Shown piece after piece: positions 9,390 through 28,520 of a DNA stretch of 51,451 nt. Every line of letters begins with the position of its first letter. Positions within the stretch are counted from its first letter, which is position 1. The DNA comes from Bacilli bacterium. GTDB lineage: Bacteria > Bacillota_I > Bacilli_A > RF39 > UBA660. The notes under the pieces are model-generated. The model was not told the origin of the DNA. It made no database searches and saw only the letters and a list, made by a program, of their open reading frames with translations. The DNA lies in assembly GCA_017964405.1 (NCBI GenBank), contig JAGCSA010000031.1, forward strand, positions 1-51,451, given 5' to 3'. The translations under genes and the position numbers were made by a program.

Positions 9390-9420
9390 GTAATATGAGA
9401 ATAGATTGGTGGTGACTAAG

Positions 9421-10644: not shown

Positions 10645-10662
10645 TGATAGGAAGTGAGAACA

Positions 10663-13600
10663 ATGAAGAAAAATATAGAACCAAAGAAAACTTTTTCTCT
10701 TCTTGTTCTTGCTTTTTTTGTTGTTTTCTTTGCTTTTTCTATCTTTACAGTATTATCTGGAATCCTTTCTTTTGCGGAATTAGAGGGATGGGATGGAAAG
10801 ACCATTGCAACCGAGTTTGCTTCTGGTAATGGTAGTGAAGAAAATCCTTATGTGATTCATAATGCAGCTCAATTTATGTACTTTAAGTCTCTTGTAGAAG
10901 GAGATACTTTTTCTTCTTATCAGGATAAATATTATGTATTAGATTCTGATATTGATTTTGGTGGATATGATATTACTCCTATTGGAATAGAGGTTTCGAA
11001 AGAAGTAGTAGAGATGCCAGTAGAAGAGAATGGGGAAGAAACTTCTATTGAAGAGACGGAAACAGAAGAGGCTGCAGTAGAAGAAGTTAAAAATGTAGAA
11101 GATAGAATCTTCAAAGGTACTTTGGATGGAAAAGGTTATTCTTTGATGAATTTTAAGATCAGAGAAGGTACTGCTTTAGAGGGAAAGACTTATTATGCTT
11201 TCTTTAGTAAAGTAGAAGAGGGTACCATTACAAGAATTAATCTTGATAATTACCGGATTGAAGTTCCTGAAGATGTGGATGCTGTTATTTCTGGACTAGT
11301 TGGTAATCAACAAAAGGGAATGATTGAGGATGTTACTCTTCGTAATTTTTATATTCATACGCATAATAATGCAGATTCTGTTGTTGGTATTATTGCAGGA
11401 GAATCAGATGAAGTTAAAATTACAAAAGTTTATGTAGATGGAGAAGTCAATGGTTCTTCTCAAGGATTTGTACGTTATTTTGATAAAGGAGAATCTACTT
11501 TTATTCTTTCTCGATTGACGTATGATGGTATTTTAGAACATGAGAATGTAAAAGATTTATATTTTGTAAAAGATGGAAAGATTCTTTTAGAGGATACAGA
11601 AGTATCCGAAGTTTCTTTACTTGCTTTATTGAATGATGGATTAGAAGCTGATTATTATTGGGCTTTTGATCAAGGAGTCTTTAAATTCTCTACTCATGAA
11701 TTAGATGTTGTAGAAGTTCCAGAAGAGTCTAAGGAATTTGCTTTTTCGATTCAGGATGCTCCTAGTATTACTGTTCATGATACTGGTAGAGACGGAACTT
11801 CTGTTTATGTTAATGATTTAGTAGCAGATTACAATTACTATATGGGTCTTAACTATACAGAGTTAACTAGTACGAATGGTACTCTTCCCAATGGAGAGAA
11901 TCAAGGATTATACAGTAATAGTAATTTAGCAACGGTTTATATTCGTTATAGTGCTTATGATATTAATGATTCTAGTATTTATGGTGCGATTAGTACAACA
12001 GAGAATTATCGTGAGATGTATTATTACAAACGTTATCCTGTTGTCAATGGATATGTTGAATTTGATTTAATTGATAGTCCTTGGGGAAGTAGACCGAATA
12101 ATCGTGCTTTCAATGGATGGGTTACAGATGATCCAAATGCAGTTATTACGTTAGATATTGAAACTTATACAAGACATGTTAAAATCCCTGTTACGAATGT
12201 AAGTTCAGTAGTTTCTATTACGTTCTATTCTAGTTGGACTACTGCTACAGTTGCTACTACAACGGGTAGTTTAGGGGATTTAAAAGTAGTTGGAATGAAT
12301 TCGATTCCAAGTTCTTGGGAAGATGTATCTGGTTACTTTATTACAGCTCATGTAAATAATGGTAATAATTATCCAAATGTTGCGAATTTATATGATATGA
12401 GTGGAAATTCCATTACAGCTGGTAGTGCTTGTAATACAACGGGTGGATGTGATTTCTATCGTAGAAATACAACATCTACTTATAATGCTTCTACGGTATA
12501 TTATATGATTACTCCTGGAACAGGAGGAAATCATGCTACGATTGAGATCTATGCTCCTAAGAAATATCCAATTACGTATTATAGTGAGAATGCTCGCGCT
12601 GCCGGATACTTTAAGGCAGTTACTTCTGGAACAGAGAATATTTATAATTCTTCTGGAGAAAAATTAGCTTCTTGTTCCTATGGTACTTGTTATCAATTAT
12701 TACAATATAGTGATGGAATTGTTGATCCAAATACGACGTATTATTATTTAACAACTCGTGATACGAATTTATTCGTTCCTTCTACTACGAATACGATTAA
12801 TACCAGTAACATTTCTACTTCTCGTCCTATGACGATTACAGGAATGCATAATGGTTCTAATAATGCTAATAATCGTACGATTTATTTAAATGGTGACTGG
12901 ACGATTAATTCGGATTTAAGAATTGAACATATTCGTTTTTATACCAATACTACTTCTACGACGGTTACCAATTTAACAACTGATAACTATGAAATTATTG
13001 GTAATTACCATAACTTAAAGATTGGTAGAGGATTGGTTCGCTACACTGCGAATGGACGAACATATTTGACGGCCGGTTCTTTCATTGGAGGATCTAGTTC
13101 GAGTGCTACTTCCTTAAGAAGATATACGACGATTATTGAATCTGGTTGGTATCAAGCAGGTTCTGGTATTGGATATTATTCTACCCAGACACATCGTGTT
13201 AATGCGAATGTTGTCTTAGGAAATGATTATGACCGTGTTGTTGGTACGAATGATGCTTTAATTGTTTATTACTGCTATGCAGGATCTTGGGCTTCGAACT
13301 TATATAATAGTTCTTCTAGTTCCAATACGTATGATTTCCCTGCGATTGTTACAACGGTTAAGAGTGGTAGCTTTGGTACGAATCAAGGAGATTATGCTGC
13401 TGGTGTTTATGCTGGTGGACGTGGTTCTGGTACTCACTATGCTCTTCGTTCTGTCATTGTAGAAGGTGGATATATCTTCAACTTAATCGGTGGACCGGTT
13501 TCTGCGGATGGACGTGCCGGAAAGAACGATGTTATCCTAAATGTTAAAGGTGGAACGGTTAGTTTAATTGTTGGTGGAGCAGGTGCTTCTGATACTGTTG

Positions 13601-16600
13601 GTAATCGTATCTTAAATATTACGGGTGGTACGATTGAATATGGAATCCTTGGTGGAAGTAATGCTTACACAAGTGGAAATAGTAGTAACCCATATGGTAA
13701 AATTGATGGAGATACTTTAGTCTACGTCGGTGGTAATGTTACTGTTGGAAATCAAACGGATTCTTTATATAACGTTGCGAGTGGAAATGTATTTGGAGCT
13801 GGTAACGGACGTCAAGGAGAATTAGATGTTGGTTCAGTCAACAATTCGAATGTTATTATTGGACCTTCTGCTACGATTAAAGGTAGTGTTTATGGAGGAG
13901 GTAACTTCGGAGCTGTTGGTGGAAGTACTGCTACGAATGCTACGTATGATGGTAATACCAGTGGTGGAGGAGATACTCCTACGGATACTGGTGGTGTCTA
14001 TATTGATAGTACGGCAGATGCCAATATTCGTTATTATGGAACGAACCCAGACAACTATATTCGTTTCAATAATGAGACTTATCGTATTGTTGGTTTATTC
14101 TATAACGTAGAAACCAATAATGGTACAGAAGATTTAGTTCGTCTTGTTAAGACAACAAGAAATGGTAATGGTAACTATGGATGGATTACCAATAACTCTT
14201 ATATTACAAATGGAAATAACCGTGTTTATTCTAACTACTTTGTTCGTAATGATAATGATGATAAATCTAATATGTATAACTATTTGAATACGACTTACTA
14301 TGGAGCATTGAATGCAACTTCTCAAGGATACATTCAAGCTGTCAATTGGCCAATGGGTGCGATTGCCAGTAACGTGAATACGGCTCCAACGTTCTATTCT
14401 GCCGAACATGGTAGTACTCCAGGTAGTAGTTATTCTGTTACATCTTATAATTCGAATGTTGGATTATTATATGCTTCAGACTTTGGATTTGCGAATAATT
14501 CTAGTACTTGTTTAACGACAAATTTATCTGCTTATGCTGGAACTTGTGCGAATAGTAACTGGATTAGTAGTATGATTACGAATAATGCTTGGACGATGAC
14601 TCCATCTACTTATTCAGAAAATATTTATCAGAGAACTGGTCGTACGTATGATAGTTATCATGTGTTCTATATTGGTACGGCTCATAACTTGTATCGTAAC
14701 AATGTAGCTTACTATAGTGGTGGTTATGTTGCTCGTACGTATGCCGTTTATCCATCTTTCTATTTGAAGAGTGATTTAACGATTGCAAGTGGTACTGGTA
14801 CTCAGGGAGATCCTTATGTCATCGGAACAGGTGATCAATTATTAACGGATATCATCTATGGTTTAGCCCATCCTGATAATCCAGAAATTCCAGATGATTA
14901 TGAACCAGTAGAAGATGATGGTATTTATCAAGAAGCTACGGATTATGTAGGACGTACTCATGTTCAGATCTTAGGTGGTACGATTCAACAATCTGTTTAT
15001 GGTGCTGGTAACAATAATGGTTCTGGTACGATCGGTAATAATAACCGTATTGCTTTAACAAAAGTAACCATTGATATGGATGGTGGTACTGTTGGAGACT
15101 CTGTTTATGGAGGAGCCAACGAAATGGGTACCGTTTATGGAGACGTATTAATTAATATTAACAATGGAACGGTTACGAATTCTGTTTACGGTGGAGGTAA
15201 AGGAGGTTACTCCGGTACTTCTAACGGAACGTATGTTTCTCGTGATGTAGATGTTAATATTGGTAGTGCCTCTACAACAGCTCTTTCGATTGGAAGAAAC
15301 GTTTATGGTGGATCTGCTTTTGGTACGGTTAATGGTATCGGACAAAATGAAGGAGAGAATTCTCATCATGTTCGTGTAACGGTTAATGCTGGTGTTGTTA
15401 CGGGATCTGTCTTTGGTGGTGGTGAAGGAGATAGCACTTACGTACCAAAGGAATATGGAAACATTTATGTTCACGTTAATGGTGGAAGCATGACCAATGT
15501 ATTTGGTGGTAATGATTCCCGTGGTGAACCAGGTAATATTGATATTGTTTATTTAAATGGAGGAACCATTGGTAATGCCTTTGGTGGTGGTAATAATACT
15601 GGTCAGACGTATTCGGATATTCGTCTACAAGGAAGTACCATCTCTGGTAATTTATATGGTGGTTCTAATAATTCAGGAGAAGTTGCTAGTACGCATGTTA
15701 CGGTATCTTCTGGAATGGTTACTGAAGTATTTGGAGGTAACAACTTAGGAGGATCTGCTGGAAATACCCATGTTAATGTAACGGGTGGTATGATTACTAC
15801 CGCTGTCTATGGTGGTGGAAAACAAGCAGAAGCTACGACAACAGCAACGACAGTTACCGGATGTACGGTTCCATCTGTCTACGGTGGAGGTAAGAATGCT
15901 GGTGTTGATGCGACTACGACTGTTATTATGAATAATGCGACTGCTACAGCTGTCTTTGGAGGTTCAAATGCTTCTGGAGATGTTGCTAACAGTAGTGTTC
16001 GCTGTATTGGATCTACGATTGGATCTGTTTATGGAGGTAATAACTCTGGTGGAGAAACCGATGCCGCTCACGTTCGATTAGAAACTTCTACTATCGGAAA
16101 TGTATTCGGTGGTGGAGATAATGCAACGACCGGTACTTCTTCTGTGATTGTCGATAGTGGTTTAATTACCAATGTATTCGGTGGAGGAAATGAAGCCGGT
16201 GTCACGACAACTGATGTAAAAATCAATGGTGGTACGATTGCTAATGTCTATGGTGGTTCTAATACCCAAGGAGATATTGATTCTGCGAATGTTGCTATCA
16301 ATGGTGGTACGATTACAACTGCCTTTGGTGGAAATAACTTAGGTGGAGAAACTGATGTTGCTACGATTACTTCTACTGGTGGTTCTGTTGGAACCCTTTA
16401 TGGTGGAGGAAACGAAGCTATAGTAGGAGAGACAACACTTTCTCTTGATTCTCTAACAGCCGGAACTATCTATGGTGGAGGAAATCAAGCAATTGTTAGA
16501 GGAGATGTCACTTGTGGAATCTCTAATTCGACTGCTTCTGGCCATGTCTATGGTGGTGGAAATGCTGCTGGTGTCAATGGTGGTGTTTCATTAGAGATTG

Positions 16601-19600
16601 ATTCTTCTACCATTACGGGAAATGTCTATGGTGGAGGAAATGAAGGTGTTGTTCAACACAACACAGATGTTCATGTATCTGATACGACTGTTTCTTCTAA
16701 TATCTTTGCAGGAGGAAATGGTGCGACTGCCATTGTTTATGGAAATTCTACTGTTACGATTGATGGATCAACGGTCGTTGGTAATAGTACGACTGTTGCT
16801 CCGAATGCTGGATGTGTCTTTGGATCTGGAAATGCTGCTGCTACGGGATCCGATGGTCATCCATCAGTTGCTACTGTCAACATTGTAGGAGGAGAAATCT
16901 TCGGAAATGTTTATGGTGGAGCTAAGATGTCTGTTGTTTATGGAGTAACGGATACCAATATTGGTACAGCTGCTGTTAATAAGAATGGTTTAGTGGAAGA
17001 TGATATTCATATTCACGGAACTGTCTTTGGTGGAGGAGAATCGAATGCTTCTGGTAGTGAAGTTTACGACTATACCTTCATCTCTGTAACGGATGGTATT
17101 ACGGTTGATATTGATGGTACTGGTTATATTGATCATAGCCATGACTTCATTATTAACGGAAGTATCTTTGGTTCTGGTAATGCTTCTTCTTCTGCAGGAG
17201 ATTCTGATATTACGATTAAGAACCTAGGTACGATGGCTCAACCAAATAGAGCAATCTCTATTCAAAGAGTTACGAACTTAGTGATTGATTCTTCTGTCAT
17301 TGAACTAATGGGTGCAACCGACAGAACCAATGACTTAGTTGATTTCTTATATTCATTTAACCAAATTGATTATTTGGTCATTAAAAATAACACAACTTTA
17401 TTCTTACAACACAATGCCAACTTATTGAAGGAAATTTATAGTGGTGTTGATGTAGGAGGTACGTTAACAAAAGCAACTGTTACAATCGATGATGATACGA
17501 AAACAGTTACGAAAAATGTTGATAATCGTATCTACATGGTACCAGGAGAAAACTTACATATTGCCGTTAACCAATCTGCTACGGCTTATGGACGTGTTAA
17601 TGGTATGACCTTCTATGGAATGTATACTTCTGGTGATAGTAATAACTATCGTTTAGGATTATATGATCCTCAATATGACTATGGAGATAGTGGTAATGCA
17701 AGCTTAGAGCTTGTTGGTGGTAGTTATGTTGTTGGTTTAAAATATACCAATCATAATATTAAAGTAGATGGATTCTATACGAATATCTTGGATGATGAAA
17801 CGTATTCTGAGATTGTTACGAAGTATATTGATCCTAGCCGTATCGGTGATACCGGTTATCGTTGGATTATCGGTTTCGAAGCCATTAACTATACGGTTCC
17901 ATTAATTATTTCTAAATATTCTTCTTTAGGTACGTATGAACTTTCTATGATCGATTTTGCCGAAGGTAATACAACCTTTACCATCTTAGGATTTGATGCG
18001 ACTGGATTAGAAAATGATGTTCAATTAATTGATTCTAATTTGGTACCAAGAATTGCCGATACCGAAGAAGAAGCGAATAGTATCTTAGGACTTTCTATGA
18101 AGGTTGAAACTCAAGAGTGGACCAGTACCGGTACTACGAAATTCTATAGTGCTGGTGGGGGAGATTACTCTGGTGGAGACGAGTATGTTACCGATAGTCG
18201 TCAGGTAGCTCCTTCTGCGATGTTCTATGCTTACCATGCAAAGAACTTCTCTCGTACGACAGGAGATATGGGTGACTGTATCATTACGATGCAAGTTGCG
18301 ATTCCAAAGAATGAAATTGAGTTTGATATTAAGTTCGTTACGATTACGGTAGAACTTTCTGCTCGTAGCCATGATGAAGGACCTTTCTATGATGCTTCTA
18401 TTACCTATGATAAGAAGTATGAAATGCCTGCTGCTACCGATGTTTATATTACGAACCAAAGCCAATTTACTGCTTATTTCTCACTAACAGATTTCTTTGA
18501 TAACTATGCAGCTGCTTATGGTCAGAATAATGAGTTCTATCGTGTCCTTACTTTCTCAAATCCACTTCCTGCCAATACGATGATTACCATGATGGATTTT
18601 GGTTCGAATAGTAGTAGACCAGAATATTATTACTATCGTATTTCGCAAGCAGATTATACAGCTTCTGTTACGGAGTGGGAGACCTATGGTGAAGTTGCTT
18701 ATCCATTGTCGAGATTTATTAAGATGGATAGTACTTCTACGAATAATACCTATAACGATGCTGCTGCAAACTTGTTGTATTATGATACGACAACAGACAT
18801 GGTCGATGAGGAATTCTTATTCATTGTCGATATGAAGGAAACGACTGCAACGGGAGAACATTTAGATAACCACGTTTCTTTCGAACTTCGAAATGCTGAT
18901 AACTGGGCTGTTATTAACGTCGTTTCTGGACGTGATGCTTTGATGGTTTATAATACATTTGATAGTTCAAATGTTGTCTTAAGGCAAACCTTTGCAGATG
19001 TCGATTCTTACTTGTATTACAACGTTCCAGATGTCATTAATTATTCTACGGAAATCTTATATAATGAGACTGAAAATAGACAGTCTATTATCGATACAAA
19101 TTATGAGTTTAGTAGTATGGGTCTTAATGTTACGATTATTGATCGTACCGGAGAACCTGTTAGTTCCAGCTTGTTAGTTGGTACAAACATCGTGGTAGGA
19201 AACCATGAATACTATGCAGATGGAAAAGGTGTCTTTCGAATTAAATTAGCGAATAAAGTATCGAATATTAACAGGAACTTGAATCTTGTTATTGGTAGAA
19301 ACTTACCTGCTGGTAATTATACCGTTCGTTATACCTTATTTGCTTCTGAAGATGGACTTCATAATTCAACGTATCAAAATTCTGTTACGGAAGAATTTAA
19401 TGTTACAGTTGTATCTTCTTCTAGTTACATAGCTGTTTCTTGTGAGGATGAGACAAAACTTGTTTATGGAGAAACAGGATTGAATCATGGAGAGACTCGT
19501 ATTAATACCTATACGGTTGAATATGTATCTGAATTAAGTAATCCTAACTTTAGGGTAGAGATCTACAAGAGAAATACAGATAATATTAATTCTACGGTTT

Positions 19601-19827
19601 ATCAATCTGTTGCCTTCAGTACTTTATTTACGAATAACTATACTTCTGCAGGAAACGGAAATGAAGTCATTTTACCAGTTGTGGAAGATGATGAAGAAGA
19701 TTTTGATTTCCAACTTGCGACGAATTTAACGAGTGGTACTTATCGAGTAGTCTTTAGACTTTACGATAACAATCAGTTAATTGATGAAGATATCAAAAAC
19801 GTGATTGTTCAGAAAAAGATAGATTAA
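10663..19827 (+). CDS. Giant VYGGGN-repeat beta-helix surface protein, 3054 residues
   Basis: A signal segment at about 9-36 ends LSFAELEGW, a possible Ser-x-Ala cut. Residues about 50-280 look like an entry beta-helix (NPYVIHNAAQF, DSDIDFGGYDITPIG, FKGTLDGKGYSL, GLUG-like turns). About 380-560 look like a B-repeat region (AFNGWV). From about 890 a long VYGGGN/VFGGGN repeat helix begins. It is interrupted at about 1107-1395 by a DUF6273-like domain (YIRFNNETYRIVGLF, YPSFYLKSDLTI, GDPYVIGT) and resumes to about 2185. The rest (2190-3054) is beta-rich with Ig-like parts. No LPXTG or C-terminal anchor is seen. The start is ATG 10663 behind AGGAAG, not GTG 10654. It is probably a secreted or wall-associated adhesin or fibre. 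Confidence 0.9.
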   Translation: MKKNIEPKKTFSLLVLAFFVVFFAFSIFTVLSGILSFAELEGWDGKTIATEFASGNGSEENPYVIHNAAQFMYFKSLVEGDTFSSYQDKYYVLDSDIDFGGYDITPIGIEVSKEVVEMPVEENGEETSIEETETEEAAVEEVKNVEDRIFKGTLDGKGYSLMNFKIREGTALEGKTYYAFFSKVEEGTITRINLDNYRIEVPEDVDAVISGLVGNQQKGMIEDVTLRNFYIHTHNNADSVVGIIAGESDEVKITKVYVDGEVNGSSQGFVRYFDKGESTFILSRLTYDGILEHENVKDLYFVKDGKILLEDTEVSEVSLLALLNDGLEADYYWAFDQGVFKFSTHELDVVEVPEESKEFAFSIQDAPSITVHDTGRDGTSVYVNDLVADYNYYMGLNYTELTSTNGTLPNGENQGLYSNSNLATVYIRYSAYDINDSSIYGAISTTENYREMYYYKRYPVVNGYVEFDLIDSPWGSRPNNRAFNGWVTDDPNAVITLDIETYTRHVKIPVTNVSSVVSITFYSSWTTATVATTTGSLGDLKVVGMNSIPSSWEDVSGYFITAHVNNGNNYPNVANLYDMSGNSITAGSACNTTGGCDFYRRNTTSTYNASTVYYMITPGTGGNHATIEIYAPKKYPITYYSENARAAGYFKAVTSGTENIYNSSGEKLASCSYGTCYQLLQYSDGIVDPNTTYYYLTTRDTNLFVPSTTNTINTSNISTSRPMTITGMHNGSNNANNRTIYLNGDWTINSDLRIEHIRFYTNTTSTTVTNLTTDNYEIIGNYHNLKIGRGLVRYTANGRTYLTAGSFIGGSSSSATSLRRYTTIIESGWYQAGSGIGYYSTQTHRVNANVVLGNDYDRVVGTNDALIVYYCYAGSWASNLYNSSSSSNTYDFPAIVTTVKSGSFGTNQGDYAAGVYAGGRGSGTHYALRSVIVEGGYIFNLIGGPVSADGRAGKNDVILNVKGGTVSLIVGGAGASDTVGNRILNITGGTIEYGILGGSNAYTSGNSSNPYGKIDGDTLVYVGGNVTVGNQTDSLYNVASGNVFGAGNGRQGELDVGSVNNSNVIIGPSATIKGSVYGGGNFGAVGGSTATNATYDGNTSGGGDTPTDTGGVYIDSTADANIRYYGTNPDNYIRFNNETYRIVGLFYNVETNNGTEDLVRLVKTTRNGNGNYGWITNNSYITNGNNRVYSNYFVRNDNDDKSNMYNYLNTTYYGALNATSQGYIQAVNWPMGAIASNVNTAPTFYSAEHGSTPGSSYSVTSYNSNVGLLYASDFGFANNSSTCLTTNLSAYAGTCANSNWISSMITNNAWTMTPSTYSENIYQRTGRTYDSYHVFYIGTAHNLYRNNVAYYSGGYVARTYAVYPSFYLKSDLTIASGTGTQGDPYVIGTGDQLLTDIIYGLAHPDNPEIPDDYEPVEDDGIYQEATDYVGRTHVQILGGTIQQSVYGAGNNNGSGTIGNNNRIALTKVTIDMDGGTVGDSVYGGANEMGTVYGDVLININNGTVTNSVYGGGKGGYSGTSNGTYVSRDVDVNIGSASTTALSIGRNVYGGSAFGTVNGIGQNEGENSHHVRVTVNAGVVTGSVFGGGEGDSTYVPKEYGNIYVHVNGGSMTNVFGGNDSRGEPGNIDIVYLNGGTIGNAFGGGNNTGQTYSDIRLQGSTISGNLYGGSNNSGEVASTHVTVSSGMVTEVFGGNNLGGSAGNTHVNVTGGMITTAVYGGGKQAEATTTATTVTGCTVPSVYGGGKNAGVDATTTVIMNNATATAVFGGSNASGDVANSSVRCIGSTIGSVYGGNNSGGETDAAHVRLETSTIGNVFGGGDNATTGTSSVIVDSGLITNVFGGGNEAGVTTTDVKINGGTIANVYGGSNTQGDIDSANVAINGGTITTAFGGNNLGGETDVATITSTGGSVGTLYGGGNEAIVGETTLSLDSLTAGTIYGGGNQAIVRGDVTCGISNSTASGHVYGGGNAAGVNGGVSLEIDSSTITGNVYGGGNEGVVQHNTDVHVSDTTVSSNIFAGGNGATAIVYGNSTVTIDGSTVVGNSTTVAPNAGCVFGSGNAAATGSDGHPSVATVNIVGGEIFGNVYGGAKMSVVYGVTDTNIGTAAVNKNGLVEDDIHIHGTVFGGGESNASGSEVYDYTFISVTDGITVDIDGTGYIDHSHDFIINGSIFGSGNASSSAGDSDITIKNLGTMAQPNRAISIQRVTNLVIDSSVIELMGATDRTNDLVDFLYSFNQIDYLVIKNNTTLFLQHNANLLKEIYSGVDVGGTLTKATVTIDDDTKTVTKNVDNRIYMVPGENLHIAVNQSATAYGRVNGMTFYGMYTSGDSNNYRLGLYDPQYDYGDSGNASLELVGGSYVVGLKYTNHNIKVDGFYTNILDDETYSEIVTKYIDPSRIGDTGYRWIIGFEAINYTVPLIISKYSSLGTYELSMIDFAEGNTTFTILGFDATGLENDVQLIDSNLVPRIADTEEEANSILGLSMKVETQEWTSTGTTKFYSAGGGDYSGGDEYVTDSRQVAPSAMFYAYHAKNFSRTTGDMGDCIITMQVAIPKNEIEFDIKFVTITVELSARSHDEGPFYDASITYDKKYEMPAATDVYITNQSQFTAYFSLTDFFDNYAAAYGQNNEFYRVLTFSNPLPANTMITMMDFGSNSSRPEYYYYRISQADYTASVTEWETYGEVAYPLSRFIKMDSTSTNNTYNDAAANLLYYDTTTDMVDEEFLFIVDMKETTATGEHLDNHVSFELRNADNWAVINVVSGRDALMVYNTFDSSNVVLRQTFADVDSYLYYNVPDVINYSTEILYNETENRQSIIDTNYEFSSMGLNVTIIDRTGEPVSSSLLVGTNIVVGNHEYYADGKGVFRIKLANKVSNINRNLNLVIGRNLPAGNYTVRYTLFASEDGLHNSTYQNSVTEEFNVTVVSSSSYIAVSCEDETKLVYGETGLNHGETRINTYTVEYVSELSNPNFRVEIYKRNTDNINSTVYQSVAFSTLFTNNYTSAGNGNEVILPVVEDDEEDFDFQLATNLTSGTYRVVFRLYDNNQLIDEDIKNVIVQKKID
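13340..17210 (+). repeat. VYGGGN protein-repeat region with inserted module
   Basis: More than two dozen copies of a V-(Y/F)-G-G-(G/S/N) turn, each followed by a strand-turn-strand with GGTI or similar, at a period of roughly 20-25 residues. A few copies lie before the insertion (about 13980-14850) and the rest after it. The copies are similar in protein but not identical in DNA, so the array is old. Confidence 0.85.
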
Positions 19828-19876: not shown

Positions 19877-20443
19877 ATGAAAAAAGTTTTACATTTTATC
19901 TGGTCTGTTTTAGAGTTTATTATCATTATTTATGTCATTGTTATGACCTCTGTTTTACTAAGTAAAAATAAATATGGATATACTCAATTTGGAACCTATA
20001 CAATCAGTTCTGTTAACTTAGTTAGCGAACGTGGAATGGCAGGTGCCCAAGCAGGAGACTTATTGATTGTTAAAAATACCAATAAAATAAAAGTAGGAGA
20101 TTTAATCTATTACTATGTGGTATACAATGAGTCTTATATGATTCAAAGTGACAAAGTTGTTCGAATGGAATCAGATGATTATAGTGCTTTGTATACGATT
20201 GATCATGATGGGGAACTTAATATTGCTAGTAACCGTGTTTTAGGAAAAGATGCTAAAATCTACCATCACATGGGAAGTGTATTAGATGTTCTTGAAAGTA
20301 AACTTGGATTCTTATTCTTAGTTTTATTACCAATCCTAGTTATTTTCATTTATCAAATTTATGAATTAGTCATGATTTTCCGTTATGAAAGTGTATCAGA
20401 AAATGATTCTGACGATGAAGAAGACGAGAAAGATAAAAAATAG
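19877..20443 (+). CDS. Catalytically dead signal-peptidase homologue (S26B fold)
   Basis: 188 residues with TM1 (about 9-29) and TM2 (about 143-165) as in SipW. The middle follows the family pattern (QAGDLLIVKNTNKIKVGDLIYYY). Where active members have Ser-Gly-Ser-Met, this protein has Glu-Arg-Gly-Met (51-54), so the catalytic Ser is Gly. Where they have Thr-His-Arg, it has Ser-Asp-Lys (91-93), so the His is Asp. The Gly-Asp-x-Asn motif is also gone. It has an acidic C-terminal tail. Likely roles are substrate binding, regulation of the active peptidases or assembly, all inference. Good SD (AGGATGG) and own terminator. Confidence 0.8.
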   Translation: MKKVLHFIWSVLEFIIIIYVIVMTSVLLSKNKYGYTQFGTYTISSVNLVSERGMAGAQAGDLLIVKNTNKIKVGDLIYYYVVYNESYMIQSDKVVRMESDDYSALYTIDHDGELNIASNRVLGKDAKIYHHMGSVLDVLESKLGFLFLVLLPILVIFIYQIYELVMIFRYESVSENDSDDEEDEKDKK

Positions 20444-20505: not shown

Positions 20506-20524
20506 ATTGATAGTAGGAGAGAGT

Positions 20525-21127
20525 ATGAAAGTAGTATTTAATAAAAAAATTGTTATCTTTCTCATTGTTGCTTTCAGTATTGCTTTTTTATACTTTGGAG
20601 CAAAGGGTACTTATACGGCCTATGAGTCTATTGTCAATGGAAAAGTAGGAAATAAAATCTCTCAGATTCATTTAAAAGTGAATGGTGAAGAGTTAGAGAG
20701 CAATGATAATGTCATTGTGATTGATGATGTTACTTGGACTTCTACACATACAAGAACAGGAAAACTTTCTCCGGGATCAACGGGAAACTTTCAATTTGAA
20801 TTAGATCCAACGGGTAGTGAAGTTGCTATTCTATATGAGATTGAATTGATTGATAAGACAGTTGATTCTACTAAAATGGTTACCTTTCAAAATGTTACTT
20901 GTGACAGAACACTTGTTAGAACTAGTGCCAATGTCTATAGTGGTATTATTTCTTTATCCGATATTCAAAGTTCCTTAAAGACACATGTTACTGTTTACTT
21001 TGCCTTTTTGGATGATGGAGATATCGAAGGAATTCAGGAAGATAACCAAGTATTTGATGACTTCTTTGAAGTACATCTACATGTTTTACAATATCAAGGA
21101 GAAGAGTTGGTTGCTTATACAGGGTAG
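20525..21127 (+). CDS. TasA-like single-pass surface protein
   Basis: 200 residues. One hydrophobic segment (about 9-25) ends FGAKGTYTAYESIVNGKVGN. A beta-sandwich-like domain follows with IHLKVNGEEL, a GKLSPGSTGNFQFELD segment and YEIEL. The same order (KVNGE, APGSSGYFDI.ID, YT) is present in the minus-strand protein at 27843, so the two are homologues of the SipW-exported TasA/camelysin type. ATG 20525 follows AGGAGAG. It is first of three surface-protein genes read together. Which peptidase handles it is not known. Confidence 0.78.
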   Translation: MKVVFNKKIVIFLIVAFSIAFLYFGAKGTYTAYESIVNGKVGNKISQIHLKVNGEELESNDNVIVIDDVTWTSTHTRTGKLSPGSTGNFQFELDPTGSEVAILYEIELIDKTVDSTKMVTFQNVTCDRTLVRTSANVYSGIISLSDIQSSLKTHVTVYFAFLDDGDIEGIQEDNQVFDDFFEVHLHVLQYQGEELVAYTG

Positions 21128-21135
21128 TGGTGTTT

Positions 21136-21741
21136 ATGAATCAAACTAAAACTCGTCGTATTTCATATTTCAGTGAGAAAGGAAGGTTTCTCCTTTTTGC
21201 GTTGTTTTTAATTTTTGTTTTATTTGTAGCTTATTACTTATTTCAAATGGCTTATGCAAGATATGAGATGAATGCTAGCCTAGTAGCAAATATTGATAAA
21301 GCTTTGTATATTTTTGATACAGATGAGATTCGTTTTAATCTAGATCCAGATGGTATTATTCCTAGTAATGAACCTTATACTTATCGTTTTAGTGTTGCGA
21401 ACTTTAATGAATCGAACGATAGTGATGTCGATATTTCTTATCATGTAACGATTCGTACGACTACGAATTTACCCCTTACGATTCAATTGTATCGTAATCA
21501 ATTACCTACTGACTCAGGTGCTGTTAGTATTATCGGTAGTGCACAAGATGTACAAGATGAAGATGGTGCTTGGTATCATGTTTATGATGTTGCTACGGAT
21601 TATGAAATGTATTATGCCAATGAGACAACGGATTACTATACATTAGTCATTAATTTCCCTGCGATTTATGCAGCAGATATGACGTATGTCAATTCGATTG
21701 AGAATATCGAAGTAACCCTAAACTCAGAACAGATGATATAG
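21136..21741 (+). CDS. TasA-like single-pass surface protein
   Basis: 201 residues: a basic start, a hydrophobic segment (about 18-38), then QMAYARYEMNASLVANIDKA, where Tyr-Ala-Arg-Tyr stands in the place of the Tyr-Ala-Trp-Phe signal. The outer part is beta-rich (YRFSVANFNESNDSDVDIS, YHVTIRTTTNLPLTI). ATG 21136 is preferred over GTG 21127, which overlaps the stop of the previous gene; the SD is weak. It is second of three linked genes. Confidence 0.78.
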   Translation: MNQTKTRRISYFSEKGRFLLFALFLIFVLFVAYYLFQMAYARYEMNASLVANIDKALYIFDTDEIRFNLDPDGIIPSNEPYTYRFSVANFNESNDSDVDISYHVTIRTTTNLPLTIQLYRNQLPTDSGAVSIIGSAQDVQDEDGAWYHVYDVATDYEMYYANETTDYYTLVINFPAIYAADMTYVNSIENIEVTLNSEQMI

Positions 21742-21751
21742 GAGGGATTTT

Positions 21752-22684
21752 ATGAAATTTATTCGAAAACATAAAACACTCAGTATCGTCCTATTGAGTG
21801 TGTTGATTGTATTTGTCATTATTGCAACGGTATTTGGTCGTTATATTCGTAATATTATTCATAACTATATTTTAGAGACGAAAAATTTCTATTTTAATAG
21901 TTCCATCTTGCATATTAATGGAAAAAATTATTCCATTACAAACTGGGATGGTGTTAATGCTTATACATTGACAATTGATTTGAATAATCGTAAGACCGAT
22001 GAGATTTATACGACTTCGGATATTAATTATACGATTCAGGTTAGTTGTCCTAGTACGGTAATTTGTACTTTGAGTAAGAATTCTGGAACTCTTCATCCGC
22101 AAGACTCTACCGATTCTTATCAAATTACGGTCAATCCCATTCAAAGTTTTGGAGAAAATGATAATGTTACTTTAACAACAACAGTTGAATCATCGACACC
22201 TTATCATAAGACCATGAGTGCGACTTATACGATTGGAGTAGAAAGAAGTAACTTCTCTTATGAGATTGTCGATGGTGTAAATGAAAAATACTTAACTTTA
22301 AATCTAACCAATGCGGTTACTTTCTATCAAGTCAGTGAAGCATTTGGAGATTATGCGGTAGATGACTATGTTAGTGTTGATGATTATACATTGTTATCTC
22401 CTACGGATCAGGCAAAATGTTATTCAGCGATTGTTAGTCTTCGTTATGATCCAGAAGTGTTATTTGTCGATATGAGTAATAAATATTATATTAATCGACT
22501 TCCAACGAATTACTATGAGGAAACAGTAGGAGGATACCAATGGGTATCGGGATTCTCCTTTAAAATGAATGCTAGTTCTAGTAGTGCCATTAATTTTTAT
22601 AAAGATGATATCACGGAGAATTTTACGTATCCTATCGTCAATAGTACTCCTGTGATTCAAGTTAGTGTACAACTTGCAAATTAA
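21752..22684 (+). CDS. TasA-like single-pass surface protein, longer variant
   Basis: 310 residues: a basic start, a hydrophobic segment (about 10-28) ending FGRYIRN, then TKNFYFNSSILHINGKN and two beta domains (about 45-150 and 155-310). A strong SD (AGGAGGG) lies 10 nt after the previous stop, so it is co-transcribed. It has one CPSTVIC Cys pair. It fits the set of SipW-associated surface proteins through its signal region and position, though the similarity is weaker than for its neighbours. Confidence 0.72.
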   Translation: MKFIRKHKTLSIVLLSVLIVFVIIATVFGRYIRNIIHNYILETKNFYFNSSILHINGKNYSITNWDGVNAYTLTIDLNNRKTDEIYTTSDINYTIQVSCPSTVICTLSKNSGTLHPQDSTDSYQITVNPIQSFGENDNVTLTTTVESSTPYHKTMSATYTIGVERSNFSYEIVDGVNEKYLTLNLTNAVTFYQVSEAFGDYAVDDYVSVDDYTLLSPTDQAKCYSAIVSLRYDPEVLFVDMSNKYYINRLPTNYYEETVGGYQWVSGFSFKMNASSSSAINFYKDDITENFTYPIVNSTPVIQVSVQLAN

Positions 22685-22748: not shown

Positions 22749-23804
22749 ATGGACAATTTAATATCTGTATTTATGAACTACAAACTAAATCGCCTTGTAG
22801 AATATGGAGTAACGATTTTTCAACAGGATTCTCCTTTTATTCGTAGTGTTCTATCCAATTATTTTCAAACCTATATTGATAATTACTATTATGGTGTTTT
22901 TAATACCATAGAAGATGAAAATATTTATAATCGTAAGAATTTAAAAACAGAATTTATGGGTATCATGGAAGAGATGCTTTACGATTATCAGAACTTTGAA
23001 GGGCAAGTTTCCAATGAAGAGTTTCAAAATAATAAAAAGACGATTCGAGAATTAAGAGATCTATCTTATGAGATTGTAAAAATTGATACTTTGGAAATTC
23101 CTAATCGAGAAGAACTTCCAGAATTTGTTCATCAATTCTTATTATCGAATGAAGTCTTTCAACATTATCTAGAGGGAAAGACAGAAAAGATGATTCGATT
23201 GATTCGAGAAACGTATACCAATGAAAATAAAATCCTTTCTTATGAAAATCAGTATTATCAAATAGGAGAAAGACATTTTGTAGAAAGAGATGATTGTGTT
23301 TGGTATAACCTACAACATTCGATTCGATCATTAGATGTTTATCGAAAAGGATTAGTTGGAAAGGTTTTTGAGGATGAGAGATTTGATTTTCTAAAAACGG
23401 AATGTTTGATTCAAAAAATTTCTTATCAGTTATTAGTGAATTTTTTAAATCATAAAGAGAATAAAAAGATTTTTATAGATTTACCTAGTTCCTTAGTCAG
23501 TAGGGGAAGTATTGATGAGAGAATTCTTTCTTTGATTGATAATCCAATGTTTCAAAGAAATGTATGGTTATCCGTTCCTTACAATACGTATTTAAGTAAT
23601 AAGAATGCATTCTCAGATGATTATCATTTTGCTTTTATGCAGGATTTCCGGCATATTAATGATATTTATCAAAAGACGGAAGGAATTTATAATGAAGGAA
23701 TTACTCATTTCTTGATTATGTTAGATTGTAAAGAAGATGATCGGGATTTCTTCCAAAACTATAAAAATGATGTAATGAGTATATTGATATTTGAGGAGGA
23801 ATAG
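22749..23804 (+). CDS. Cytosolic protein of unknown function next to the McrB-like ATPase
   Basis: 351 residues, helical, charged, no signal or membrane helix. The first half holds LVEYGVTIFQQDSPF and FMGIMEEMLYDYQNF, the second LPSSLVSRGSIDERIL and HFLIMLDCKEDDRDFF, the latter like an alpha/beta core strand. I know no family. A 64-nt gap separates it from the surface genes, with only weak TATGAT-type -10 candidates near 22703. The SD of the ATPase gene lies in its last codons, so the two are coupled. It is probably a component of the ATPase module. Confidence 0.82.
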   Translation: MDNLISVFMNYKLNRLVEYGVTIFQQDSPFIRSVLSNYFQTYIDNYYYGVFNTIEDENIYNRKNLKTEFMGIMEEMLYDYQNFEGQVSNEEFQNNKKTIRELRDLSYEIVKIDTLEIPNREELPEFVHQFLLSNEVFQHYLEGKTEKMIRLIRETYTNENKILSYENQYYQIGERHFVERDDCVWYNLQHSIRSLDVYRKGLVGKVFEDERFDFLKTECLIQKISYQLLVNFLNHKENKKIFIDLPSSLVSRGSIDERILSLIDNPMFQRNVWLSVPYNTYLSNKNAFSDDYHFAFMQDFRHINDIYQKTEGIYNEGITHFLIMLDCKEDDRDFFQNYKNDVMSILIFEEE

Positions 23805-23805
23805 T

Positions 23806-25341
23806 ATGGATACTTATGTAAGATTTTTATTTGAATTTATGTCTGTATTTTTTAAAGGTGTCGGTACTATTTTTGGCGGTATCTTTAAGGGATTCATTCA
23901 GATGTTCAATATTCGGGAATATTTATATGTCATTGATTTTTATAAGAAAGACTTTACACCAGGAGAATGGGTATTAGCGATTATTTCGATTATCGTTATG
24001 ATTATTATCTTGGTATTGATTGTTGCGGTGATTATCTTCTTATTTAGAAAATACTTCAAATTCCGTAAGACATTAGTAGAACAAGAATCTATGTTGAAGG
24101 AGATTGGAGAATTAAATCAAGAAGTTAAGAACTTAGTAGAAGAGAAAGAAAAGATTCTTGCGATGAAGGTTTCTCAACTTGGTTTAAAACCAGGAGAGAG
24201 TCCTACGATTGAGGGTGAAGAGAGTCCTGAAGAAGAGAAGAATCTTGATGGTAATTTGGATGGTTACCGATTCTCTAAACTTCATGCGATCGACTTAGAA
24301 TATCGTGATTACAAAGTACAGAATTACAACAATACCTTTACGTTGGAAGAGTTGGTTGGATTATTTAGAAACTTCTGTGCTTCTCAATTAAGACTTTACT
24401 ATACAGAAAAAATGATTCGTTTATTTATCTCTGGTTTAAGTGCTACCAAGTTAGTTATCTTACAAGGTATTTCTGGTACCGGTAAAACTTCGTTAGCTTA
24501 TGCTTGGGGTAAATTTATCAGAAACGATGCGATTATTGCATCTGTACAACCATCTTGGCGTGATAGAACTGAGTTGTTTGGTTACTTCAACGAGTTCACA
24601 AAGAAATTTAATGAAACCGATGTATTAAAAGGTTTATATGTAGCTGGATATACAGATGATGTCTATGTTACCGTACTAGATGAAATGAACATTGCACGTG
24701 TTGAGTACTACTTCGCTGAAATGTTATCTATTTTGGAAATGCCTTCTCGTGATGAGTGGATTGTTGAGTTAGTTCCAAGTGCTTGGGATAATGACCCAAT
24801 TCATTTAAAGAATGGTAAATTACAGATTCCTGGTAATATGTGGTATATCGGTACCATCAATAACGATGATTCAACCTTTGCTGTTACTGATAAAGTGTAC
24901 GACCGTGCTATGCCAATTGATATCAACGATAAAGGAGAACCTTTTGATCCAATTGAAACAGAATCTATGAATATCAATAGTTCTTATTTAGAAGGATTAT
25001 TTGAAGTTGCAAAAGAGAGACATCCTTTAACGAGTGAGATGGAACAAAAGATTGCCGATATGGATGATTATGTTATTAAACATTTCCGTATTGCTTTCGG
25101 TAACCGTATCGTTAAACAGTTAAGAGATTTCGTTGCAACTTATATTGAAGCAGGTGGAACAGAAGTAGATGCAGTAGACTATTATATTGCTCGTAAGATT
25201 TTAAGAAAGTTTGAACAATTGAACTTAGCTTATATCCGTGATGAAATTGATCCATTTGTAGAATACTTAGATAAGAGTTTTGGAAAAGAAAACTTTATGG
25301 AGTGTAAAGAGTACTTATTAAGACTTAAGAAATTAATTTAA
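23806..25341 (+). CDS. Membrane-anchored McrB-like AAA+ ATPase
   Basis: 511 residues. Two amphipathic N-terminal helices (about 7-34), a strong membrane helix (54-80), a coiled coil (about 84-122) and an acidic Pro/Glu linker lead to an AAA+ core. Walker A is GISGTGKTS (221-229). Walker B is VTVLDEMNIARVEYYFAE (288-304), the signature of McrB-family motors. IGTINNDDST (348-357) matches the McrB NTxD-type motif, and DRAMPI supplies the arginine region. McrB uses GTP to drive a partner nuclease, but here the motor is tethered to the membrane. Start ATG 23806 (GAGGAGG), not the upstream in-frame TTG. It is tightly linked to the 25357 gene and SipW. Confidence 0.9.
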   Translation: MDTYVRFLFEFMSVFFKGVGTIFGGIFKGFIQMFNIREYLYVIDFYKKDFTPGEWVLAIISIIVMIIILVLIVAVIIFLFRKYFKFRKTLVEQESMLKEIGELNQEVKNLVEEKEKILAMKVSQLGLKPGESPTIEGEESPEEEKNLDGNLDGYRFSKLHAIDLEYRDYKVQNYNNTFTLEELVGLFRNFCASQLRLYYTEKMIRLFISGLSATKLVILQGISGTGKTSLAYAWGKFIRNDAIIASVQPSWRDRTELFGYFNEFTKKFNETDVLKGLYVAGYTDDVYVTVLDEMNIARVEYYFAEMLSILEMPSRDEWIVELVPSAWDNDPIHLKNGKLQIPGNMWYIGTINNDDSTFAVTDKVYDRAMPIDINDKGEPFDPIETESMNINSSYLEGLFEVAKERHPLTSEMEQKIADMDDYVIKHFRIAFGNRIVKQLRDFVATYIEAGGTEVDAVDYYIARKILRKFEQLNLAYIRDEIDPFVEYLDKSFGKENFMECKEYLLRLKKLI

Positions 25342-25356
25342 TAGGAGGTGAGTGAC

Positions 25357-26496
25357 ATGAACGAGGAGTTAGAACAAGAAGAGATCGAGGAAGAAGAACA
25401 ATTAGAAGATGATGACTTGTTCCTTCATAATTTGAATTCTACTTTGTATGTTAAAAAAGATTATGACATGAAAGAATTCAATTATGAATGGTTAGATATT
25501 ATTGAAGATTGTATTCCTTATATTCAAAATATTTTACGTAACCCTAGACGTTTCATTATTAATGAAGAAGAGATTGTTAAGGTTGAACTTGCTCGTCGTG
25601 TTACGGTAGAATCTGTTATTCACTTATCTCAACATACCAATTTAATTCAAAAGATAGAGGATAATGGAGATGTTAAACCTTCTAAGATTTTAAATATTAA
25701 TAAAGAGGAAAGTATGGATACCTATGAAAATAGATTTATCTATACATTAGTTAATAACTTACGTATTTTCTTTGAACAGAGACTAGAGGTATCTGGTGGT
25801 AATAGTTATTGTTTTGATAAGAACAATTTAAAATATGAAGCGAATACCAAAGTCTATGGAGAAAATTTAAAGATTAGTATTGATGTAAGTGATGTCACAA
25901 GAGATGTTATGGAACATACAGGAGACAAAGGTGGCCTTACTTTAAGTGAGAGAATTCGAAAAGCAAAGACACAAATTGATGGTTTCTTTGGAACAGAATT
26001 AATTCAAATTCTTGGTAAATTACATGTATCTCCTGTTAGAAGTCCGATTAAGAAAACAAACGTTATTTTAAAGAACCCTAACTTTAGAAAGGCTGAGGAA
26101 TTATGGAACTATATTCAGTCTTTTGAAAGTAAAGATCGCAGAAAGAAAGAAAATCGTGAATTCTTTGATAAGGGTATTTTAAAAGAGGAATATGATCAAG
26201 CATTTTTAATGGCCTTTATTGCGAATAAGAACTTTATTAGTAGTAGTTCTACGGCAACAGAGACCAATATGATTCAACAGATGACGCAGCGATTGATCGA
26301 TAACTTATTGGAGACAGATCCGAATATTACCGAAGATAAATTAGATGAGTTATTTCATAAACAAGTGATGCTTACAAAAGATAAGAATACACAGAGAAAA
26401 GCAAGAGTCTTTGATGTGATGCAGAGTCGTTTAGAGAAAGAAAATAAAACGATTTCTGATTTGTTGGATCATCTTAGGAAAGAGGGTACGGCGTGA
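25357..26496 (+). CDS. DUF2357/McrC-like partner protein without visible nuclease motif
   Basis: 379 residues. An acidic N-terminus (EEIEEEEQLEDDD) leads to a domain with RRFIINEEEIVKVELARRV, a STYENRF-like segment (MDTYENRFIYTLVNNLR), and SPIKKTNVILKNPNFRKAEELW. These resemble DUF2357 proteins, which pair with McrB-type ATPases as McrC does. The C-terminal third (LIDNLLETDPNITEDKLDELF) is helical, and I see no PD-(D/E)xK pattern there. AGGAGGTGAG gives a near-perfect SD for ATG 25357. The stop overlaps the GTG of the SipW gene by 4 nt. Assignment to DUF2357 is from remembered motifs, not a search. Confidence 0.75.
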   Translation: MNEELEQEEIEEEEQLEDDDLFLHNLNSTLYVKKDYDMKEFNYEWLDIIEDCIPYIQNILRNPRRFIINEEEIVKVELARRVTVESVIHLSQHTNLIQKIEDNGDVKPSKILNINKEESMDTYENRFIYTLVNNLRIFFEQRLEVSGGNSYCFDKNNLKYEANTKVYGENLKISIDVSDVTRDVMEHTGDKGGLTLSERIRKAKTQIDGFFGTELIQILGKLHVSPVRSPIKKTNVILKNPNFRKAEELWNYIQSFESKDRRKKENREFFDKGILKEEYDQAFLMAFIANKNFISSSSTATETNMIQQMTQRLIDNLLETDPNITEDKLDELFHKQVMLTKDKNTQRKARVFDVMQSRLEKENKTISDLLDHLRKEGTA

Positions 26497-27074
26497 AAAA
26501 AGTATTTGATAGTAAGATCTTTCGTATTACGACGGGAATTGTAAAAACATTTATTATTTTGGTGATGGTTTTCTATGTTGGATTTGTCATTGTTCAACGA
26601 GCAACCGGAAACAGAAGTATTATGAGTTATCGTTTCTTTACCGTAGCAACGGGTTCTATGAACGGTGTCTATGATATTAATGATGTGATTGCCGTAAAAG
26701 ATTGTAGTACAAATGATTTAAAAGTAGGGGATGATATTGCTTATCTTGGATCTCGTTCAGGATTAGAAGGTAAGATTATTGTTCACCGTATTATAAGAAT
26801 TGAAGATGCTTCCGATGGTGGAAAAATCTTCACAACAAAAGGTGTTAATACGAATGTAGAAGATCCTATTATTAAGGATCAACAAGTGATGGGAATTGTG
26901 GTTGGCAAAATACCAATCATTACTCAGATTAATCATTTGGTTCGTAGCCAATTAGGATTTTTCTCATTGATTTTTTGTCCATTAGTCGTTATTATTGTGT
27001 TAGAAATATTACAAACGATTACGGACTATCAATTAGATAAAAGACAAATTCAAGCCATTGAAAAAGAAAGATAG
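26493..27074 (+). CDS. sipW: SipW-like signal peptidase I (S26B)
   Basis: 193 residues, standard SipW size. TM1 is at about 15-35, the catalytic Ser55 in VATGSMNG, His98 in IIVHRII, Asp124 in NVEDPI, and TM2 at about 150-172. The Lys of LepB-type enzymes is replaced by His as in SipW and the ER complex. GTG 26493 shares 4 nt (GTGA) with the preceding stop, so translation is coupled to the DUF2357-like gene. The next gene, 15 nt on, encodes a protein with an Ala-Phe-Ala-Trp-Phe signal that is its likely substrate. It appears fully active. Confidence 0.92.
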   Translation: MKKVFDSKIFRITTGIVKTFIILVMVFYVGFVIVQRATGNRSIMSYRFFTVATGSMNGVYDINDVIAVKDCSTNDLKVGDDIAYLGSRSGLEGKIIVHRIIRIEDASDGGKIFTTKGVNTNVEDPIIKDQQVMGIVVGKIPIITQINHLVRSQLGFFSLIFCPLVVIIVLEILQTITDYQLDKRQIQAIEKER

Positions 27075-27088
27075 TAGAGGATGAGTGT

Positions 27089-27823
27089 ATGGATCTACAA
27101 ACTAGAAAGGAAAAACTAGACGCTCTTAATAGTCGTTTAAGACGTAAGAAGTTTGTGGCAATTTTATTGGCACTTTTTACGTTGGGTGTTAATGCTTTCG
27201 CATGGTTTGTATTCTCTACACATTCTGATTATACTTATGATGGTAGGGTAGCTGCTTGGGATGTAGAAGTAAAAGAAGGAGAACAGTTAGTTAATAATGT
27301 CATTGTGGCAGTTGATATGAAGCCAGGAATGACGGATTTCTCTAAAACCTATACAATTAATAACTTAGGAGAGGTTACGGCAAAAGTGTCTTATGCCGTT
27401 AAGAGTTTTACGATTTTGGGTAGAACGGTTAATATGTCTTCTATTTCGAATGTAGATAATTACTTACAAAATTATTATCCATTCTCCATTCAAGTATCTA
27501 CGAATAAAACAACAATTGCTCCTGGAGAATCTGCTACTTTCAATGTAGTGGTTCATTGGGATTTTGAAGATAGTACTGCTTATTATCAGTTAAATGATAT
27601 CTATGATTTTAATGAGACATTCTCTTATTATACAAAGTCTGGATCAACGTATAATGTCTTTAATGCCACTTCAGAGAATTATGCAGCCAATCGTAATTCT
27701 TTATACTTAGAGAAAGATGATGCCGATACTTACTTTGGTATGGAATGTGGTACTTATCAAGATACAACACATTTAACTTGTTTAGAGTTAAAATTAGTAC
27801 TAACAGTAGAACAAAATAGTTAA
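27089..27823 (+). CDS. TasA/camelysin-like protein with SipW-type signal
   Basis: 244 residues. Basic start, hydrophobic segment about 20-36, then VNAFAWFVFSTHSDYTYDG, a clear Ala-Trp-Phe SipW-type cleavage site, then GRVAAWDVEVKEGEQ, as in TasA-like proteins. The outer domain is beta-rich (TIAPGESATFNVVVHWDF, SRNSLYLEKD-like). A Cys pair (MECGTY, HLTCLEL) lies near the end. It is last in the ATPase/SipW operon and ends in a two-way terminator. It is the best candidate for the cargo of the whole module. Confidence 0.85.
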   Translation: MDLQTRKEKLDALNSRLRRKKFVAILLALFTLGVNAFAWFVFSTHSDYTYDGRVAAWDVEVKEGEQLVNNVIVAVDMKPGMTDFSKTYTINNLGEVTAKVSYAVKSFTILGRTVNMSSISNVDNYLQNYYPFSIQVSTNKTTIAPGESATFNVVVHWDFEDSTAYYQLNDIYDFNETFSYYTKSGSTYNVFNATSENYAANRNSLYLEKDDADTYFGMECGTYQDTTHLTCLELKLVLTVEQNS

Positions 27824-27825
27824 TA

Positions 27826-27853
27826 AAAAAAGATAGCAAATGCTATCTTTTTT
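27826..27853. terminator. Bidirectional terminator between convergent genes
   Basis: A 13-bp perfect palindrome (27826-27838 with 27841-27853) with A-run and T-run on opposite sides. It serves the + operon and the - strand gene, whose stop codon is within it. Confidence 0.85.
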
Positions 27854-28433
27854 GTTCGAAGTGGATTGTTATGTTTACTTCGGTATCAATATAATCATCT
27901 TCTTGTGCATAAGCTGTATCTTCTTGATTATCCATGGTGTTTGTTGCACTGTCGTTCCATTCAAAATACATTCGAATGGTCGTACGAGAGGTATTCATAG
28001 GAATATCTCCTACAATTCCTGTTGTGGAATTATAAGCGGTTGTCGAACCGTTATTAACTTTGTAATTTTTAATAATTAAATCTTCCAAAGGAGTATCATC
28101 ATCGACTTCTCCTGTTACGGTATAGGTGAAATCTACATCTACGTTGGTAGCATCTATGATGATATCAAAATATCCGGATGATCCAGGAGCAATTGTTCCT
28201 GCTTTTACATAGGGATTGGAATCAATCGTAGGAGTAATGGAATTGGTTAAGGTCGTAGAAGAAGAAATATCTTCATTATTGACTTTTAAATTCCAACTGG
28301 CAACTCTTGCCTGTACGGTTGTTTCTGTCTGCCTTCGATACTTCGCATAGGAAGACTGAAACATGTACATTAAGGTAATTCCTACTATGACTGTAAAAAG
28401 AACTAAAAAGTAAACATCATTTTTCTTTTTCAT
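27843..28433 (-). CDS. TasA-like single-pass surface protein (only minus-strand gene)
   Basis: 196 residues from ATG at 28433, which has AGGTGAG 4 nt upstream on this strand; the in-frame upstream ATG has no SD. Hydrophobic segment about 7-25, then MFQSSYAKYRRQTETTVQAR. Tyr-Ala-Lys-Tyr sits in the signal position. The domain has WNLKVNNEDI, GTIAPGSSGYFDIIID and YTVTGEV and matches the 20525 protein, so the two are paralogues. It ends in a bidirectional terminator shared with the ATPase/SipW operon. It is the only gene in the window on this strand, which may reflect a local inversion or separate control. Confidence 0.8.
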   Translation of the reverse strand: MKKKNDVYFLVLFTVIVGITLMYMFQSSYAKYRRQTETTVQARVASWNLKVNNEDISSSTTLTNSITPTIDSNPYVKAGTIAPGSSGYFDIIIDATNVDVDFTYTVTGEVDDDTPLEDLIIKNYKVNNGSTTAYNSTTGIVGDIPMNTSRTTIRMYFEWNDSATNTMDNQEDTAYAQEDDYIDTEVNITIHFEQKR

Positions 28434-28520
28434 AGTCTCACCTATTATTATTTTAACATAATGCATTTATTTTTGATAGTATTTTCTTTCTTATGATACA
28501 CTAATAGTAGGTGAATGTTT

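Follow-up and report, generated by a model that had tools for sequence, protein, structure and literature searches.

A cassette of five genes at positions 22749–27823 of contig JAGCSA010000031.1 (assembly GCA_017964405.1, 1.28 Mb, low GC), from a Bacilli bacterium of the GTDB family UBA660, appears, on balance, to encode a nuclease-free, membrane-anchored motor derived from McrB and McrC that serves the biogenesis of signal-peptidase-processed surface proteins; the window, as the term is used here, is the whole 51,451-nucleotide stretch analysed. The cassette comprises a gene that we call U, a McrB-like AAA+ protein (AAA), a DUF2357/McrC-like protein, a SipW-type signal peptidase and a predicted exported protein. 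In one paragraph of its main text, the study of Bell et al. (2024, eLife, PMC11090510) gives the name CoCoPALM to McrB GTPases that form a clade, carry a fused FtsB-like domain and are associated with signal peptidases, and defers them to a later paper, with no functional study; it places the clade beside the CoCoNuT restriction systems. The window system shares with CoCoPALM the McrB GTPase with a membrane helix and coiled coil, the McrC homologue and the associated signal-peptidase genes, so that the initial annotation, which knew of no described system with this make-up, claimed too much novelty, the type having already been named. What is new is the link to EAL domains, the fusions of signal peptidase to U (Sip-U) and the variants lacking a signal peptidase (Sip-less): in contrast to what is seen here, neither "EAL domain" nor "c-di-GMP" (cyclic di-GMP) nor a Sip-U fusion occurs in the main text of Bell et al., its supplements aside. 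No later CoCoPALM paper turned up in a search that left out most subscription journals and preprints, so that an unseen report is possible, and no paper combining DUF2357 with an EAL domain was found in the literature searched.

The McrB signatures of the AAA protein recur in its relatives, and so does the predicted N-terminal membrane helix that the initial annotation had read, with a coiled coil, in front of them. A profile of 49 AAA homologues matches McrB (6hz4, among PDB profiles) with E=1.1e-6, and the motifs GISGTGKTS, LDEMN, ARVEYYFA and NNDD are nearly or fully invariant across them, the invariant NNDD being readable as NxD or as NxxD. Identity across genera is 49–92%, and the mean column identity of AAA (64%) exceeds that of the DUF2357 protein (43%), the exported protein (26%) and U (25%). 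Hydropathy predicts a membrane segment near residue 50–70 in 24 of 24 class relatives of the same size; the segment leads into a basic run and then a coiled-coil-like stretch, and this region of helix and coiled coil (residues 66–121) gives weak FtsL and ftsL_broad matches, the FtsB model itself giving none. Given the positive-inside rule, the basic run would place the AAA domain in the cytosol. No DNA-binding or modified-base-binding family matched the N-terminus, which consists of the membrane helix and coiled coil instead.

The partner protein matches DUF2357 (PF09823; Table 1), and its AlphaFold2 model (predicted local distance difference test score, pLDDT, 78.7) finds its best matches in the DUF2357 part of McrC (6ut5_G, Z 7.7 over 137 residues, followed by 6ut7_G and 6ut6_G). 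Past residue 254 the model has one strand and then helices, the last of them a predicted long helix (residues 324–376). It contains no nuclease fold, and neither this protein nor 36 class relatives have a nuclease Pfam match, in agreement with the earlier description of a McrC-like protein without a nuclease site; the alternative that the DUF2357 protein is a nuclease was rejected on these three grounds. Cleavage of modified DNA is what McrB-type motors are known for. The window system has the McrB AAA+ domain and the McrC DUF2357 domain of the type IV restriction systems of E. coli and T. gammatolerans, but it lacks a nuclease and any recognisable DNA-binding domain, and carries a membrane anchor in place of the latter.

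The neighbourhoods of related genes connect this pair to protein export. The usual order in 50 loci of the same family is U-AAA-DUF2357-SipW-exported protein, and a signal peptidase lies within four genes of AAA in 46 of them, and in all 24 single-helix loci elsewhere in the class; seven five-helix loci have one as well. The Ser, Met and His residues of the signal peptidase are kept in 46 of 46 homologues, whereas the window protein falls below the cut-off of the Bacillus SipW equivalog model (NF046067; 61.7 vs 190 bits); of the "active SipW" originally annotated, the intact Ser-His pair stands and the identity with the B. subtilis enzyme does not. Among 40 homologues of the exported protein A38, W39, F40, P79 and M81 are invariant, and an AWF-type N-terminus marks 26% of the other genes near class loci as against 3% farther off. 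Since the arrangement recurs in dozens of genera, it is far beyond chance, and the scan for SipW neighbours proposed with the initial annotation turned out positive for signal peptidases and for AWF-type exported proteins alike.

At the Sip-less loci L075–L078, with no signal peptidase nearby, U, AAA and DUF2357 are kept and a membrane protein of ~425 residues with DINIDxNGDGxPD-type repeats follows, so that even without the peptidase the motor has a predicted surface protein as its neighbour; this protein aligns weakly with the exported-protein family, over the membrane segment and what follows it only. Membrane proteins of 318–441 residues with such repeats, probably calcium-binding, stand directly after DUF2357 at L075–L078, L080 and L081.

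Several observations weigh against a role in surface-protein biogenesis. Signal peptidases are absent near six tandem and three twelve-helix AAA loci. SipW-type genes are present in 138 of 145 family genomes, and their co-occurrence with AAA says little; the evidence is adjacency. The exported protein is matched by no family in Pfam, NCBIfam or PDB profiles, which leaves the cargo without a family and the "TasA-like" label of the initial annotation without profile support: a TasA identity was rejected, TasA/camelysin (PF12389) matching neither this protein nor anything else in its own genome. As in the SipW-TasA operon of B. subtilis, a Ser-His signal peptidase adjoins exported proteins, but the window cargo matches no TasA/camelysin model, and the B. 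subtilis operon is not known to include such a motor. A PADLOC candidate-defence model, PDC-M26A, matches AAA. Finally, the system is patchy, occurring in 42 of 145 family genomes and not in the same-genus genome G013, a distribution that fits a defence or accessory role too; roughly a third of the class genomes sampled (100 of 296) hold a membrane McrB-AAA relative, all layouts counted. The syntenic site of G013 holds two signal-peptidase-like genes and then the right-hand flank of the window from 28515 on, so that the motor block is a replaceable unit. A search of the sister genome for the third upstream exported protein (Table 1) found none.

McrB ancestry, the PDC-M26A match, this patchiness and the place given to the clade beside CoCoNuT in the main text of Bell et al. 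(PMC11090510) all speak for defence, in which a membrane motor derived from type IV restriction would react to phage infection, the surface proteins serving as its sensor or as a barrier, with an effector other than a nuclease. We nevertheless judge this rather unlikely: no nuclease or other toxic effector was found in the system, PADLOC matches are only scattered on the flanks and among 123 neighbours in the class, without enrichment of defence genes, the linked genes are those for signal peptidases, exported proteins and EAL proteins, and AAA is conserved across genera. The neighbours are thus not mostly defence genes and SipW is present among them. A motor for export or assembly, as initially annotated, agrees with the missing nuclease, the linkage to signal peptidases and AWF-type proteins and the lack of defence enrichment; that it would export or assemble surface fibres is conjectural.

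If the cassette does serve surface-protein biogenesis, the AAA+ domains may form a hexamer that the N-terminal helices tether to the cytosolic side of the membrane and into which the DUF2357 protein would insert a stalk, as McrC does; ring, stalk and docking are inferred here by analogy with McrBC and NorQ/NorD. The C-terminal helix of the DUF2357 protein would pass on the motion driven by nucleoside triphosphate, and this motion would remodel, release or assemble the complex of precursor and peptidase, so that AWF-type exported proteins, the putative cargo, are processed or assembled at the surface. The sequence is compatible with processing, with release and with polymerisation alike. In NorQ/NorD (PMC9976466) a partner finger in the AAA+ pore remodels a membrane target, an arrangement that its authors liken to McrBC while arguing against threading. 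These MoxR/VWA remodelers would thus have in common with the proposed machine an AAA+ ring, a pore-inserted partner finger and a membrane target, but the NorD partner is a VWA protein, whereas the window sequences match McrB and DUF2357.

The plugged pore of a McrBC-type ring, and the argument of the same authors against threading, also speak against quality control or turnover, in which the membrane AAA+ protein would build no structure but extract or unfold either the signal peptidase or those of its substrates that have stalled. An AAA+ protein at the membrane adjoining SipW, and the fusion of U to peptidases, would suit such a task; with no protease domain in the operon and the cargo genes within it, we think it improbable. 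A conserved, nuclease-free, membrane-bound branch of McrB linked to signal peptidases, exported proteins and EAL regulators would amount to an energy-driven surface-protein machine. The data make of a one-paragraph annotation a testable model with named parts, and allow the question whether surface biogenesis took over restriction-type motors or restriction took over motors of surface biogenesis.

The first gene of the cassette adds a possible means of control. The AlphaFold2 model of U combines a helical N-terminal part with a mixed α/β C-terminal part, and the latter resembles EAL domains: in VIA the highest score is to the EAL domain of MorA (Z 12.7; 4rnj_A, root-mean-square deviation 3.3 over 174 residues, for the predicted model), all 50 listed entries are EAL domains (Z 9.6–12.7), and Foldseek agrees at lower significance (E 2.8e-3). 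FimX and LapD are among these fold matches, although U has no significant sequence similarity to EAL; both are regulators, of pili or a surface adhesin, and are not known to act as phosphodiesterases. U has no Pfam match and no recognisable EAL catalytic residues, and in three attempts hhalign against EAL or pseudo-EAL profiles gave P of about 0.004 to 0.4, none significant, so that predicted fold and operon position are what ties U to EAL; U may be called EAL-like by its modelled fold, and by sequence it does not group with the EAL family. In 10 of the 50 family loci U is fused to the C-terminal side of a signal peptidase, in proteins of 668–811 residues, and a profile from unfused U proteins recovers these fusions with whole-protein E of 1e-34 to 1e-44; a U-family search of the first 40 class loci found no match. 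Among possible contacts of U the peptidase is, given the fusions, the likeliest; U would gate the machine as a pseudo-EAL protein.

EAL genes also accompany related operons. Among the Pfam families of the 123 class neighbours EAL is the commonest (8), ahead of GGDEF and two lactamase models (4 each). With a local EAL profile, an EAL gene was found on the same strand within seven genes at 12 of 24 single-helix class loci and at none of the 16 loci whose AAA has another membrane layout (Fisher p=0.0009, uncorrected for shared ancestry), in genomes that hold only 1 to 8 EAL matches each. A hand count from coordinates places EAL on the contig and strand of AAA within ~20 kb in 17 of the 24 genomes; in most of the remaining 7, the contig that carries AAA is short or ends close to it. 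Twelve further loci were added, three (from genomes G251, G210 and G304) chosen for a known EAL match and nine blind to it. At seven of them (L144–L150) the gene directly upstream of AAA encodes 419–467 residues; the EAL profile picks up three of these proteins (E 1e-16 to 1e-30), and a profile built from the whole set of seven matches EAL at 3e-21, with catalytic positions largely lost and the conserved Asn replaced by Pro in all seven. No signal peptidase was present within the fetched stretch at L144–L150, so that the pseudo-EAL slot and the peptidase do not always go together, while at L151, L152 and L154 a true EAL gene comes just after the signal peptidase. The pseudo-EAL gene of L144–L150 is preceded by one for a protein of 1570–2176 residues. 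An adjacent pair of EAL genes, mostly of ~780–860 and 460–510 residues, lies upstream of the operon at L089, L090, L094, L099, L100, L105 and L120, several second members lacking the second Asp of DDFG.

On this evidence we propose tentatively that c-di-GMP, or a signal derived from it, is sensed by (pseudo-)EAL proteins, which would switch the membrane McrB/DUF2357 ring driving processing or assembly of signal-peptidase-dependent surface proteins; the papers searched describe no such second-messenger-gated use of restriction machinery. Sensing of c-di-GMP would be least expected in the window's own genome, which has no Pfam EAL and a single GGDEF gene (L143 3787–5826, contig 27) with DGNEF for GGDEF and a solute-binding-like sensor part. 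These traits and the non-significant profile comparisons would also suit a convergent, barrel-like U unrelated to c-di-GMP enzymes, with the EAL genes near class relatives reflecting separate regulation of biofilm genes, but the uniformly EAL fold matches, and the relatives of EAL without catalytic residues that fill the same slot directly upstream of AAA at L144–L150, make this quite unlikely.

All five open reading frames of the initial annotation are present at the positions it gave (Table 1).

Table 1. Genes of the cassette and neighbouring genes in the window.
Feature	Position	Strand	Description
Gene U	22749..23804	+	351 residues; helical N-terminal part, EAL-like C-terminal fold (residues 166-351) in the AlphaFold2 model, pLDDT 92.8
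AAA	23806..25341	+	Predicted membrane-anchored McrB-like AAA+; membrane helix and coiled coil at the N-terminus; Walker A/B and NNDD intact
DUF2357/McrC-like	25357..26496	+	Without nuclease domain; PF09823 E=2.1e-11; final helix ~50 residues
SipW/ER-type signal peptidase I	26493..27074	+	TIGR02228 E=1.7e-17, above cut-off; Ser-His pair intact
Predicted exported protein	27089..27823	+	Likely cargo; N-terminal membrane segment, then AWF; conserved PGM
Second predicted exported protein	27843..28466	-	Convergent; retained in ~35 related loci
Signal-peptidase-like paralogue	19877..20443	+	Weak SipW match; dyad positions not Ser/His; 26% identity to the 26493 gene
Predicted exported or membrane-anchored protein	20507-21127	+	First of three directly upstream
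Predicted exported or membrane-anchored protein	21127-21741	+	Second of three directly upstream
Predicted exported or membrane-anchored protein	21752-22684	+	Third of three directly upstream; retained in 33 related loci

The likely starts of AAA and DUF2357 were chosen by ribosome-binding sites: the AAA frame opens at TTG 23791 and probably starts at the ATG that follows GAGGAGG, and the DUF2357 frame opens at GTG 25348 and probably starts at the ATG that follows AGGAGGTGA. The overlap of the DUF2357 stop (TGA 26494–26496) and the SipW start (GTG 26493) in the four bases GTGA is as first described. A perfect stem, AGATAGCA-AA-TGCTATCT, followed by a T tail, lies between the exported-protein gene and the convergent gene and suggests the end of the operon at this point; it was read directly from the sequence, its loop being too short for the scanner to list it. 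Promoter matches were no more frequent than in shuffles and the scan is uninformative.

Farther upstream, 10654–19827 encodes a predicted surface protein of 3057 residues with many VYGGxN-type repeats that adjoins signal-peptidase genes and has relatives in ~30 related loci, and 9406–10644 a signal peptidase with a cytosolic extension of ~240 residues (PF00717 match), its N-terminal part related to the Sip-U fusion proteins. Other layouts of the membrane McrB-AAA occur in the class. At L117, L118 and L119 it has ~900 residues and ~12 predicted membrane helices, with a DUF2357 partner of ~520 residues and no signal peptidase nearby. At L106–L111, also without a signal peptidase, two or three AAA genes (~390–510 residues) surround one DUF2357 gene and are followed by genes for proteins of up to ~2200 residues. 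At L112–L116, L122 and L123 AAA is ~600 residues long and is predicted to have some five membrane helices, the gene directly or nearly directly upstream encodes a signal peptidase, and the DUF2357-like partner is divergent, in some cases with a C-terminal zinc-ribbon-like motif.

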